From NCBI RefSeq assembly GCF_040784935.1, contig NZ_CP160680.1, forward strand, positions 6,677,802 to 6,741,801: a stretch of DNA of 64,000 nucleotides, given 5' to 3'. Below the pieces are notes generated by a model. That model worked only from the letters and a program-made list of their open reading frames with translations. It made no database searches and was not told where the DNA came from. Positions 56,531 through 57,364 of the stretch are shown one piece after another (within the stretch, counting starts at the first letter, position 1; each line of letters opens with the position of its first letter). The position numbers and the translations under genes were made by a program. Source of the stretch: Lewinella sp. LCG006. Its GTDB lineage: Bacteria; Bacteroidota; Bacteroidia; Chitinophagales; Saprospiraceae.

Positions 56531-56612
56531 GCCGATGTGGCGGAATTGGTAGACGCGCTGGATTCAAAATCCAGTTCCTTCGGGAGTGTGGGTTCGATTC
56601 CCACCGTCGGTA
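56531..56612 (+). tRNA. tRNA-Leu (anticodon CAA)
   Basis: Class II tRNA of 82 bases with a long variable arm. The acceptor GCCGATG pairs with CGTCGGT (first pair G-U). The anticodon stem CTGGA/TCCAG encloses loop TTCAAAA, giving anticodon CAA (reads UUG). The T arm is GTGGG-TTCGATT-CCCAC. CCA is not encoded. A terminator follows directly. Confidence 0.95.
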
Positions 56613-56616
56613 CTAA

Positions 56617-56650
56617 AAGCTCAATAGACCAGTCTATTGGGCTTTTTTTA
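56617..56650 (+). terminator. Terminator after tRNA-Leu(CAA)
   Basis: AAGCTCAATAGA and TCTATTGGGCTT pair (one G-U) around a 4-base loop, then a T-run. Confidence 0.85.
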
Positions 56651-56661
56651 TTTTTAAACCT

Positions 56662-56790
56662 ATGTACTTTGTCTACGCATTAAAATCTCACGATCGCAAT
56701 TATATCTACGTTGGACTAACCAATAACATTGACAGAAGGATCAATGAACACAACGCAGGCTACAACAAAACACATTTCTTTCAAAAATAA
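56662..56790 (+). pseudogene. Truncated GIY-YIG nuclease gene
   Basis: From ATG 56662 the frame encodes 42 residues with the GIY-YIG N-terminal pattern (MYFVYALKSH...NYIYVGLTNNIDRRINEHN), then stops at 56790. Intact relatives need about 80 residues and end with a helix carrying a conserved glutamate. That half is absent in all three frames downstream; in its place lies the promoter of the next tRNA. The gene begins 50 bases after the end of tRNA-Leu(CAA), nearly the same spacing as its intact neighbour has from tRNA-Leu(CAG). Confidence 0.8.
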
Positions 56791-56814
56791 TTTGGAGAAC
56801 AATTCGGTATTTAC

Positions 56815-56822
56815 CATCTTTG
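56815..56822 (+). promoter_or_regulatory. Near-consensus -7 element upstream of tRNA-Leu(CAG)
   Basis: CATCTTTG matches TAnnTTTG except at the first base; it is 25 bases before the mature tRNA 5' end. Confidence 0.35.
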
Positions 56823-56846
56823 CGCACCGCAAAAGAATGCGGTCTC

Positions 56847-56928
56847 GCCGAAGTGGTGAAATTGGTAGACACGCACGTTTCAGAGGCGTGTGCAGCAATG
56901 CGTGCGGGTTCAAGTCCCGCCTTCGGCA
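56847..56928 (+). tRNA. tRNA-Leu (anticodon CAG)
   Basis: Class II tRNA of 82 bases. The acceptor GCCGAAG pairs perfectly with CTTCGGC. The anticodon stem CACGT/GCGTG encloses loop TTCAGAG, so the anticodon is CAG (reads CUG). The T arm is GCGGG-TTCAAGT-CCCGC. CCA is not encoded. Bases 56878-56928 recur as a broken copy downstream at 57220-57315. Confidence 0.95.
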
Positions 56929-56930
56929 CT

Positions 56931-56960
56931 AAAAGCCGCTCATTTTTGAGCGGCTTTTTT
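56931..56960 (+). terminator. Terminator after tRNA-Leu(CAG)
   Basis: AGCCGCTCA and TGAGCGGCT form a perfect 9-bp stem, followed by a T-run. Confidence 0.9.
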
Positions 56961-56978
56961 CGTTTAACTCATTATGGA

Positions 56979-57218
56979 ATGTATTTTGTCTACGTTTTAC
57001 AGTCGTTAAATCACAATTTTCGCTACACTGGGATGACCCAAAACCTTGAACGACGCTTAAATCAGCATAATCGGGGAAACACTTCTTCTACTCAATTTTA
57101 TGCTCCTTTTATGATAATCCATTCAGAAGCATTTGATGACTCTAACGAAGCCAGAACACGCGAAAAATATCTCAAATCAGCCGCTGGCAGAAGATGGATT
57201 AAAGAAAAGTATCTCTAA
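56979..57218 (+). CDS. GIY-YIG nuclease domain protein (UPF0213-like)
   Basis: A 79-residue single-domain GIY-YIG protein: MYFVYVLQS supplies the first strand, YTGMTQNLERRLNQHNRG the second motif with the catalytic arginine, and EARTREKYLK the conserved glutamate helix. Stand-alone GIY-YIG proteins of this size are common in Bacteroidota; their roles are unclear, and some families are homing or DNA-processing nucleases. It starts 51 bases after tRNA-Leu(CAG). Its stop codon is followed within two bases by a partial copy of that tRNA. The track-length frame runs back through the tRNA, which cannot be coding. Confidence 0.88.
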   Translation: MYFVYVLQSLNHNFRYTGMTQNLERRLNQHNRGNTSSTQFYAPFMIIHSEAFDDSNEARTREKYLKSAAGRRWIKEKYL

Positions 57219-57219
57219 A

Positions 57220-57315
57220 TTTCAGAGGCGTGTGCAGCAATGCGTGCGCCCGCCTGGACAGTCGGACAGGCCCGCCTGGACAGTCGGACAGGGGTTCAAG
57301 TCCCGCCCTTCGGCA
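57220..57315 (+). pseudogene. 3' fragment of tRNA-Leu(CAG), split by a 44-bp insertion
   Basis: Bases 57220-57248 are identical to 56878-56906 of tRNA-Leu(CAG), from the anticodon loop through the variable arm. Two copies of a 22-bp unit follow, then GGTTCAAGTCCCGCC and the acceptor strand CTTCGGC resume at 57293, with one extra C. The 5' half, D arm and 5' anticodon strand are absent, so no functional tRNA can form. The insertion falls exactly at one position (between CGTGCG and GGTTC) without deleting any tRNA base. Confidence 0.9.
57249..57292. repeat. Two perfect tandem copies of a 22-bp unit
   Basis: Units at 57249-57270 and 57271-57292 are identical (CCCGCCTGGACAGTCGGACA plus GG). Each contains GGACAG twice. 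They sit inside the tRNA-Leu fragment. I did not see the unit elsewhere in the window. Confidence 0.9.
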
Positions 57316-57322
57316 CTTACAC

Positions 57323-57364
57323 AAAAGCACCTATCAGACTAGCGTCTGGCAGGTGCTTTTTTTT
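57323..57364 (+). terminator. Strong terminator after the tRNA-Leu fragment
   Basis: AAAAGCACCT (57323-57332) pairs with AGGTGCTTTT (57351-57360), with an inner CAGAC/GTCTG stem and an eight-T tail. Confidence 0.9.

Follow-up and report, generated by a model that had tools for sequence, protein, structure and literature searches.

A probable homing-like GIY-YIG nuclease element of 342 bp carrying a replacement piece of its target tRNA gene in Lewinella sp. LCG006

Our analysis of the window, by which we mean the whole stretch of 64,000 nucleotides from Lewinella sp. LCG006, showed that its two tRNAs, both tRNA-Leu and both on the + strand according to ARAGORN, are each followed by a terminator hairpin and then by a GIY-YIG ORF that matches PF01541, as the initial annotation had proposed. 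The intact tRNA-Leu(CAA) (56531..56613, +) precedes a hairpin with a T run (56615..56646, +; fold -15.8 kcal/mol, z -5.2) and ORF1 (56662..56790, +; PF01541 E 2.2e-11), a 42-aa remnant of the N-terminal part of a GIY-YIG gene. The complete tRNA-Leu(CAG) (56847..56929, +) precedes a terminator of the rho-independent type (56931..56958, +; hairpin and T run, fold -19.1 kcal/mol, z -6.1) and ORF2 (56979..57218, +; PF01541 E 6e-17), an intact 79-aa GIY-YIG nuclease. The proposal that the first ORF is truncated at 42 residues and the second intact held up on both counts. The last six codons of ORF1, from about 56773, are native intergenic DNA common to the congener G002, in which the site is empty (56773-56931 aligns with G002 at 95.6% identity), and ORF1 is thus a 3'-deleted remnant. 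ORF2 scores 62.2 bits against PF01541 (cut-off 22.6), which places it in the GIY-YIG superfamily, and has all residues that are invariant in 21 aligned members (Y5, Y16, G18, R26, H30, T38, E62 and K66), which we take to be the GIY-YIG core (Tyr, Tyr-x-Gly, Arg, Glu). Among solved structures only 1ywl (3.3e-5) and 1zg2 (1.2e-4) matched in phmmer at E<=0.01, and the only NCBIfam model to match at that threshold was TIGR01453. A group I intron with a GIY-YIG endonuclease was rejected, since TIGR01453 reached 18 bits against a cut-off of 56 and the tRNA is unsplit.

The two ORFs do not appear to be products of a recent duplication. Their near-equal spacing was correctly noted in the initial annotation, with distances of 49 and 50 bases from the ARAGORN tRNA ends rather than 50 and 51, but it is not special: in relatives whose tRNA precedes the ORF, the two are 1 to 146 nt apart, and 63 of 77 gaps measure between 33 and 74 nt, a usual length that accommodates the terminator. 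At the nucleotide level, the ORF1 and ORF2 stretches share 71 nt at the ORF start with 69% identity and elsewhere only chance-like matches of <=10 nt, so that the suggested duplication of a tRNA, terminator and nuclease module was abandoned. In the collected set, ORF1 is best matched by elements at tRNA-Arg and tRNA-Leu(taa) (51 bits), with ORF2 in fifth place (44.7 bits).

The ends of the intact unit are defined by a feature that had escaped the initial annotation: directly after ORF2 (57220..57316, +), positions 32-83 of tRNA-Leu(CAG) recur as a displaced 3' part, identical at 52/52 aligned positions. The distance from the start of one repeat to the start of the other gives an element of 342 bp (56878..57219, +) that consists, in order, of the tRNA 3' part (positions 32-83; 56878..56929, +; direct repeat with 57220-57316), which would complete the functional tRNA, the terminator and ORF2. 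It lies between the displaced copy and tRNA positions 1-31 (56847..56877, +), which, judging from the repeat boundary, would be the native 5' part left of the insertion point. A further terminator hairpin 3' of the displaced piece (57323..57360, +) is presumably the original one. It differs from the hairpin of G002 and G003, and the fact that the downstream flank and terminator of the window are unlike those of its congeners counts against our main reading, set out below.

The displaced copy is itself interrupted: a 29-nt exact match is followed by a 44-nt insert and then by the T arm and 3' end of tRNA-Leu(CAG). The insert consists of two tandem copies of a 22-nt repeat in the T arm (57249..57292, +), and this repeat occurs at 9 places in the window genome with <=2 mismatches, two of them those of the window (reversed control, 0). 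Because the insert is dispersed in its own genome and folds no better than shuffles, we treat such inserts as secondary arrivals, and the idea that the palindromes of displaced pieces belong to the element was dropped. Over the whole set, 31/55 inserts contain a perfect stem of 6 or more, compared with 5% of shuffles and 7% of random segments.

Both tRNAs are present in the congeners G002 and G003, whereas the nuclease gene is absent from both at the window site; such presence and absence at the same site in close relatives is the pattern expected of a free-standing homing endonuclease. The tRNA-Leu(CAG) of the window is 100% identical to that of G002 and is an ordinary copy at its old place rather than an extra one. 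Occupancy is also polymorphic in genus g60, which has sites without the nuclease gene at Leu(taa), Arg(acg) and Ala(ggc) (the Ala site of G057, L197, was left out, as the element there seems inverted at a contig end). Together, the two congeners and genus g60 refute stable inheritance of the locus, which the initial annotation had named as the outcome that would speak against a mobile element. The empty Leu(taa) site in G057, the sole locus with an outgroup, is more simply explained as a loss than as the original state, and its native terminator differs from the terminator of the element. Occupied, decayed, tandem and empty states are all found within one genus. At the Leu(taa) locus of G044 there is a single hint of a host-foreign carried piece.

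Elements like this one sit at a wide range of tRNA genes, in related bacteria and also in certain other phyla. We collected the loci of our main sample by their similarity to the window protein or the A1 profile, itself derived largely from tRNA-linked members; those from one broad genome search, in which 97/148 genomes matched and some matches belong to a second GIY-YIG clade, comprise 80 stretches plus automatically chosen loci among the matches listed. After removal of duplicate loci and of hits below 60 of 76 profile columns (36/207), a tRNA was found within 150 nt of 102/171 near-full-length ORFs (176 loci), on the same strand in 102/102 cases; since the loci were drawn by similarity to the window protein or A1, this proportion should not be read as a genome-wide rate. 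Of the remaining 69 ORFs, 41 have a tRNA or a piece of one within 500 nt, and the 28/171 ORFs that lack any tRNA trace count against the main reading. A control sample drawn with Pfam (50 loci, 64 hits) is free of the window-similarity bias; 30 of its loci are the best match per genome and 20 were hand-picked, with their surroundings unseen, among the matches listed from seven genomes. In this sample, 12/29 window-type hits (A1 E<1e-18) lie within 150 nt of a tRNA, all 12 on the same strand, compared with 0/35 more distant GIY-YIG hits, and the 30 best-match loci alone gave 7/11 and 0/21, respectively. For the other 17/29 window-type hits, many of which belong to arrays, no tRNA lies that close, again to the detriment of the main reading. 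Over all loci, 4/53 distant hits (1e-18<E<=1e-9) did fall within 150 nt of a tRNA, at L056, L098, L137 and L197, loci that mostly hold a window-type copy too. The concentration at tRNAs that the initial annotation had asked for in relatives is seen for GIY-YIG ORFs of this clade.

The duplicated tRNA end is equally widespread. A piece of the same tRNA is present on the far side of the ORF in 87/101 testable cases and, with tRNA genes masked, in 98/127, compared with 10/65 flanks of tRNAs lying >900 nt from any such ORF. Three observations weigh on the other side: the displaced piece is missing in 14/101 testable cases; in 42/128 masked cases a tRNA piece also turns up on the side opposite the ORF (as it does in 43/101 unmasked control flanks, a figure due to neighbouring tRNAs having been left in); and, among the 83 displaced "pieces" with scores of at least 30, some amount to almost complete copies of the tRNA. 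A displaced tmRNA piece was also sought behind L046, the copy linked to tmRNA, and none was found. A terminator is present in 74/82 of the spacers between tRNA and ORF, where shuffles predict 1.1. The elements come in two mirror-image layouts, either with the tRNA upstream and the displaced 3' part behind the ORF (type A), or with a displaced 5' part, then the ORF, then an intact tRNA. These data support the earlier idea of a small nuclease element of about 300 bp that repeatedly lands 3' of tRNA genes; its restriction to the 3' side of tRNA-Leu was too narrow, as many other tRNAs are occupied and, in the mirror layout, the 5' side as well.

The phylogeny of the nuclease tracks the target tRNA more than the host. 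On a tree without identical proteins, ORFs further than 150 nt from any tRNA or tRNAs that could not be named clearly, isotype requires 38 changes, compared with 71.8 with shuffled labels (0/200 as low). When the best match is sought in other host families, it shares the isotype in 41/92 cases (7.5 expected); when it is sought among other isotypes, it comes from the same host family in 15/92 (12.4 expected). In an ORF-only DNA search in which at most 2 candidates per genome were scored, relatives of the Met element were found in nine genomes of other host families, with a tRNA-Met in each best locus. This clustering by isotype indicates a specific target that is conserved across hosts, as in free-standing homing endonucleases. 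It is also difficult to reconcile with passive hitch-hiking, in which these small genes would be leftovers of larger elements drawn to tRNA genes as general integrase and island sites. Such an origin is brought to mind by G001, where the same tRNA-Leu(CAG) is joined to an apparent tyrosine-recombinase island (the integrase was recognised by eye), but the 342-bp unit has room for ORF2 alone, so that an integrase island was rejected for it. Units across the set mostly measure 300-450 bp and hold no other gene, tandem units repeat the same length, and ORF and tRNA share a strand in all 102 cases within 150 nt. Nor are relatives of the window protein common on vehicles that could have carried them: 2/50,697 phage records and 1/72,556 plasmid records gave matches, all weak, and two single-protein queries found none in viral contigs. 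Phage or plasmid cargo was rejected on this basis, and we regard hitch-hiking as very unlikely.

The ORFs are under purifying selection: pN/pS is 0.13 for 6 between-genome pairs and 0.14 for 8 tandem pairs (14 of the 25 pairs with >=78% nt identity). This would suit a host-beneficial pair, with a nuclease that acts on tRNA or invading DNA under stress or in defence against phages and a linked tRNA gene or tRNA piece that shields the host. So would the intact tRNA linked to the ORF and the existence of a tRNA-cutting defence system, Septu, mentioned in the part of the source available to us (PMC13096335). However, the nuclease gene decays and is lost inside one genus, the linked tRNA in the window is the ordinary copy, and the conserved ORF residues are those of the GIY-YIG core; we regard a benefit to the host as very unlikely to explain these loci.

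Of the 25 ORF pairs with >=78% nt identity, 24 do not reach beyond a single locus, genome or genus, and the last, at 78%, stays within a single family code. None of them joins near-identical copies from distant hosts or from different tRNAs, which leaves recent movement between hosts or tRNA types unsupported. Tandem neighbours occur for 57/178 ORFs, many of them 98-100% identical. Vertical inheritance with local duplication and loss could explain part of the pattern. That it explains all of it, with the gene inherited vertically at tRNA loci, breaks of its own making or spontaneous ones duplicating tRNA part and gene, and empty alleles that were never invaded, seems unlikely to us, even with SegB of phage T6 as a precedent in the text available to us (PMC13096335). 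Presence is patchy and the orthologous sites of the congeners lack the gene; at the empty Leu(taa) site, the native terminator is unlike that of the element; and the same nuclease lineage sits at the same tRNA in many host families, yet the searched genomes with a match hold few copies, 1 to 11 each.

Taken from the arrangement of these loci, the reading that we favour is that the intact copy is probably a site-specific, homing-like, minimal selfish element that carries a replacement piece of its target tRNA gene. The nuclease would make its cut close to the insertion point (in the window, position 31/32 in the anticodon arm) of a tRNA gene that is of its own type and still free of the element. 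Recombination with an occupied copy would then repair the break, with the tRNA pieces on either side of the ORF as homology arms. Since a replacement 3' (or 5') piece would come with the insert, the essential tRNA would still work and the cell would survive. In the type A layout, the terminator before the ORF should hold expression of the nuclease low; in the mirror layout, the ORF would be on the transcript of the tRNA. Recombination between the two tRNA pieces would remove the element precisely, giving a life cycle of gain, decay, loss and re-gain, and re-insertion at the rebuilt tRNA, or unequal recombination there, would produce tandem arrays. That the rebuilt tRNA keeps the presumed target counts against this model; it may indeed remain a target, as the tandem arrays suggest.

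If this is correct, units of roughly 340 bp at many bacterial tRNA genes would represent an overlooked class of mobile DNA whose nuclease lineages keep to their tRNA type, and would account for the tRNA fragments and odd GIY-YIG gene calls beside tRNAs in Bacteroidota. They would also provide a ready-made set of small nucleases whose target specificity has evolved naturally, and a testable case of a selfish nuclease living in an essential gene without killing its host. We suggest more tentatively, as a possible but doubtful extension, that the small GIY-YIG nucleases of Bacteroidota and other phyla form a general selfish class homing to hairpins, each lineage on one kind of DNA rich in hairpins, whether a particular tRNA gene, the P3 helix of RNase P RNA or REP-like palindromes, and with a spare piece carried where the target is an essential RNA gene. 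Its members, at about 340 bp, would rank with the smallest known autonomous mobile elements, and the class would tie elements that target tRNA genes to repeats of the REP type.

REP sequences are short palindromes tied to a small enzyme gene, TnpA-REP/RAYT; these enzymes are HUH/Y1 transposases and are not known to sit at tRNA genes. The second GIY-YIG clade found here resembles them in that it often sits between palindrome arms, with a GIY-YIG rather than an HUH/Y1 enzyme. Integrative elements and islands with attachment sites in tRNA genes make the tRNA whole again from a piece that they bring along, and a partial copy stays behind, but they have an integrase gene and are kilobases long; the window element would likewise restore its tRNA, with a nuclease as its only gene. 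The UPF0213-type proteins (PDB 1ywl and 1zg2, with chains of 96 and 107 residues) share the stand-alone GIY-YIG domain, and we know of no link between them and tRNA. Our searches of an open-licence library brought up no account of elements like the present ones in bacterial chromosomes, and to our knowledge homing elements that rebuild their target are known from fungal mitochondria and, at tRNA loci, only as phage SegB.

SegB of T4-like phages is a free-standing GIY-YIG homing endonuclease that cuts in tRNA genes and drives tandem amplification, as described in the part of the account available to us (PMC13096335). It shares with the present elements an enzyme gene beside tRNAs and the amplification of tRNA and nuclease gene in tandem, and in our reading its 9-base motif resembles a tRNA T-loop in reverse complement. 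It differs in belonging to a phage genome with one tRNA cluster and in having no known pattern of one enzyme to one tRNA across bacteria. The same portion of the account describes no displaced tRNA piece (PMC13096335). Closer in architecture are the mORFs of fungal mitochondria, which, in the text accessible to us, swap the 3' end of their target gene, atp6 in Allomyces and atp6, atp9, cox2 and nad3 in Glomus (PMC3630166). They too combine an endonuclease ORF with a replacement 3' part, have the displaced original 3' part downstream and are absent in close relatives, and the Glomus atp9 case is likewise GIY-YIG (PMC3630166). As far as that text goes, they differ in lying in protein genes of fungal mitochondria, in the LAGLIDADG enzymes of the other three Glomus cases and in a visibly foreign carried piece (PMC3630166). 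The window and 87/101 cases in its relatives have the arrangement of an mORF, with the end of the target duplicated and the nuclease ORF between the copies, set in tRNA genes of bacterial chromosomes, with a 79-aa enzyme, an internal terminator and mirror variants.

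Our analysis bore out the initial annotation that each tRNA-Leu gene in the window is followed by a hairpin and then by a GIY-YIG frame. ARAGORN calls two tRNAs in the window, both Leu (CAA, 56531-56613; CAG, 56847-56929), directly behind which lie terminator-type hairpins (z of -5.2 and -6.1, respectively) and then two frames matching PF01541, ORF1 and ORF2. ORF2 is intact (56979-57218, 79 aa), and immediately past its stop codon begins a displaced copy of tRNA-Leu(CAG) from position 32 to the 3' end (57220-57316; 52 of 52 aligned positions identical), its T arm split by a 44-nt insert, with a further terminator hairpin on its 3' side (57323-57360). 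The two tRNA-Leu(CAG) repeats start 342 bp apart. On the simplest reading, a 342-bp unit made up of a tRNA 3' part, a terminator and the nuclease ORF would sit between the two parts of the original tRNA-Leu(CAG) gene, and the unit's own tRNA part would now complete the functional tRNA. The open frame of ORF2 also extends upstream across the entire tRNA-Leu(CAG) gene (156 open codons; 56820-57218, 132 aa from a TTG), a read-on that is likely to lead annotation to misplace the gene's start.

Two other genomes of the genus, G002 and G003, possess both tRNA-Leu genes, and the nuclease model has no match in the 3-kb locus of either. The G002 tRNA-Leu(CAG) is 100% identical to that of the window, the stretch 56773-56931 is 95.6% identical and the upstream gene region 84% over 1055 bp. 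The comparison covers the left side of the site only, the right-hand junction falling outside it because the downstream flanks of G002 and G003 are unlike the window's. The last six codons of ORF1 belong to the native spacer as seen in G002, so ORF1 is what a 3' deletion has left of another such element, one following tRNA-Leu(CAA). In a further congener, positions 28-83 of tRNA-Leu(CAG) are joined to an apparent tyrosine-recombinase island, its integrase recognised by eye (L181; no tRNA called in this locus), which looks like an element of the conventional kind occupying this very anticodon arm.

Elsewhere the association takes two mirror-image forms, either intact tRNA, terminator, ORF and displaced 3' part (type A) or displaced 5' part, ORF and intact tRNA (type B). 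Of 101 testable cases, 87 have a piece of the same tRNA beyond the ORF. When every tRNA gene is masked, a piece is found on the ORF side in 98/127 and on the opposite flank of those tRNAs in 42/128, compared with 10/65, some of them scars, in similarly masked control flanks whose tRNAs are over 900 nt away from the nearest such ORF. Among the 83 pieces scoring at least 30 (62 type A, 21 type B), type A pieces extend to the tRNA 3' end in 53/62, with a median start 3 nt before the ORF stop codon, and type B pieces begin at tRNA position 1-3 in 17/21. As a rule, then, the missing side of the piece is the one that faces the ORF, matching the prediction for insertion; the exceptions are a few displaced pieces that are nearly whole tRNA copies. 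Terminators are present in 74 of 82 type A spacers (1.1 expected).

In many loci the D, anticodon or T arm of the displaced piece holds a GC-rich insert, frequently a palindrome (stem of at least 6 in 31/55), and at four Ala loci four different TCCCG...CGGGA hairpins stand in place of the anticodon arm. The 22-nt insert of the window is a dispersed repeat of its genome, found in nine places, two of them at 57249-57292 and others including L260-L265; no tRNA was called in the six other loci examined. An array in G219 (L248) consists of eight nuclease units, each about 364 bp long and 77-95% identical, with tRNA-Met pieces that bear TCCGCC/GGCGGA palindromes lying between them, and no intact tRNA was called in that locus.

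The window's own genome has five PF01541 matches: ORF1, ORF2, a third small frame 59 nt after tRNA-Asn, and two long frames, of 515 and 607 codons, whose 3-kb loci contain no tRNA. One sample, which is biased towards the window type, comprises 176 loci of relatives and of members of other phyla; in it, 102 of the 171 near-full-length window-type ORFs have a tRNA within 150 nt, on the same strand in 102/102, with 77 ORFs behind the tRNA and 25 in front; among the other 69, a tRNA or tRNA piece lies within 500 nt of 41 and 28 are without one (6 of these at a contig edge). A second sample, drawn by Pfam match (50 loci, 64 hits; 118/118 genomes of the phylum have a match), splits into two groups. 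Its 29 window-type hits (E<1e-18 with A1, a model of this clade built largely from tRNA-linked members) have a tRNA within 150 nt in 12 cases, on the same strand in 12/12, and its 35 more distant hits have no tRNA anywhere in the locus (0/35). Such links also occur in loci of Leeuwenhoekiella, Verrucomicrobia, Omnitrophota, Ignavibacteriales and Patescibacteria; none was found in those of Aminicenantes and Terriglobia.

Three genomes of one genus (G057, G084 and G091), whose long flank matches are 90-98% identical, show occupied, decayed and empty sites. At Leu(taa), G057 is empty, its own terminator directly following the tRNA, G091 has a decayed unit, and G084 has an intact unit plus a decayed one, with the same native terminator 3' of both. 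Because the more distant G044 also carries a decayed unit there, G057 would, by parsimony, have precisely lost its element; the intact unit of G084 may either have been gained or have been kept while the others lost theirs. For Arg(acg), the ORF is present in G084 and only the displaced tRNA piece in G057; the Ala(ggc) site is occupied in G084 and contains no ORF or tRNA piece in G091. The functional tRNA-Leu(taa) of G044 (L283) shares variable-arm letters with the displaced pieces of G084 and G091, a hint that the tRNA gene and the piece carried by the element have exchanged sequence.

A tree of 97 tRNA-linked proteins, made by a quick method from 75 columns and leaving 50 of its 94 inner branches open, requires 38 changes of tRNA isotype, compared with 71.8 when isotype labels, the only ones shuffled, are permuted (0/200 as low); for host family it requires 50. 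In 41/92 the best match from another host family shares the isotype (7.5 expected), and the best match with another isotype comes from the same host family in 15/92 (12.4 expected). As judged from these proteins, the nuclease lineage follows its tRNA. When 395 genomes were searched at the DNA level with six ORF queries that included no tRNA letters, the matches beyond the query genomes fell in nine genomes from other host families, all via the ORF of the Met element, and the best locus of each contains tRNA-Met; the locus of a second copy in G330 (L278) is without a tRNA. Pooled pN/pS was calculated from 14 out of 25 high-identity ORF pairs; the six pairs between genomes give 0.13 and the eight tandem pairs 0.14, and the nuclease protein is thus selected for. 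No recent spread between distant hosts or tRNA types was seen among the ORF pairs compared.

Other structured targets may be involved. In G230, the RNase P RNA gene holds a GIY-YIG ORF in its 5' part (L252:1286-1944), and the flanks of this ORF pair as a perfect 24-bp helix (24-nt inverted repeat) before the conserved RNase P core. This helix is apparently P3, a reading that is ours and not Rfam's because the RF00010 match begins within the last stretch of the ORF frame, has several non-standard pairs at that end and leaves out the upstream strand. In Omnitrophota, an ORF follows a tmRNA gene by about 110 nt on the same strand, with no displaced tmRNA piece found (L046). The second, more distant clade of small GIY-YIG proteins has no tRNA nearby in the Pfam-drawn sample; its ORFs are often flanked by the two arms of a REP-like palindrome (L213, L218, L233, L236, L251 and others), with an inverted flank match of at least 10 nt in 18/46 (mismatched flanks, 6.7%). 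Taken together, these RNase P, tmRNA and palindrome cases suggest, in our boldest and unproven reading, that small GIY-YIG nucleases are specialised on hairpin-forming DNA.

Among the top-ranked papers of the open-licence literature, we found none that describes GIY-YIG elements rebuilding a tRNA gene in a bacterial chromosome. A specific target, patchy presence, decay and tandem re-occupation, and a selected nuclease make up what is, in the genomes compared, the pattern of a homing endonuclease gene. From this pattern and two known parallels, we infer that the nuclease would cut the tRNA gene and that the break would be repaired with the two tRNA pieces as homology arms. Like the tRNA-linked units, the fungal mitochondrial mORFs carry a replacement piece of their target gene (PMC3630166). 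Phage SegB cuts tRNA genes, with tandem amplification (PMC13096335).
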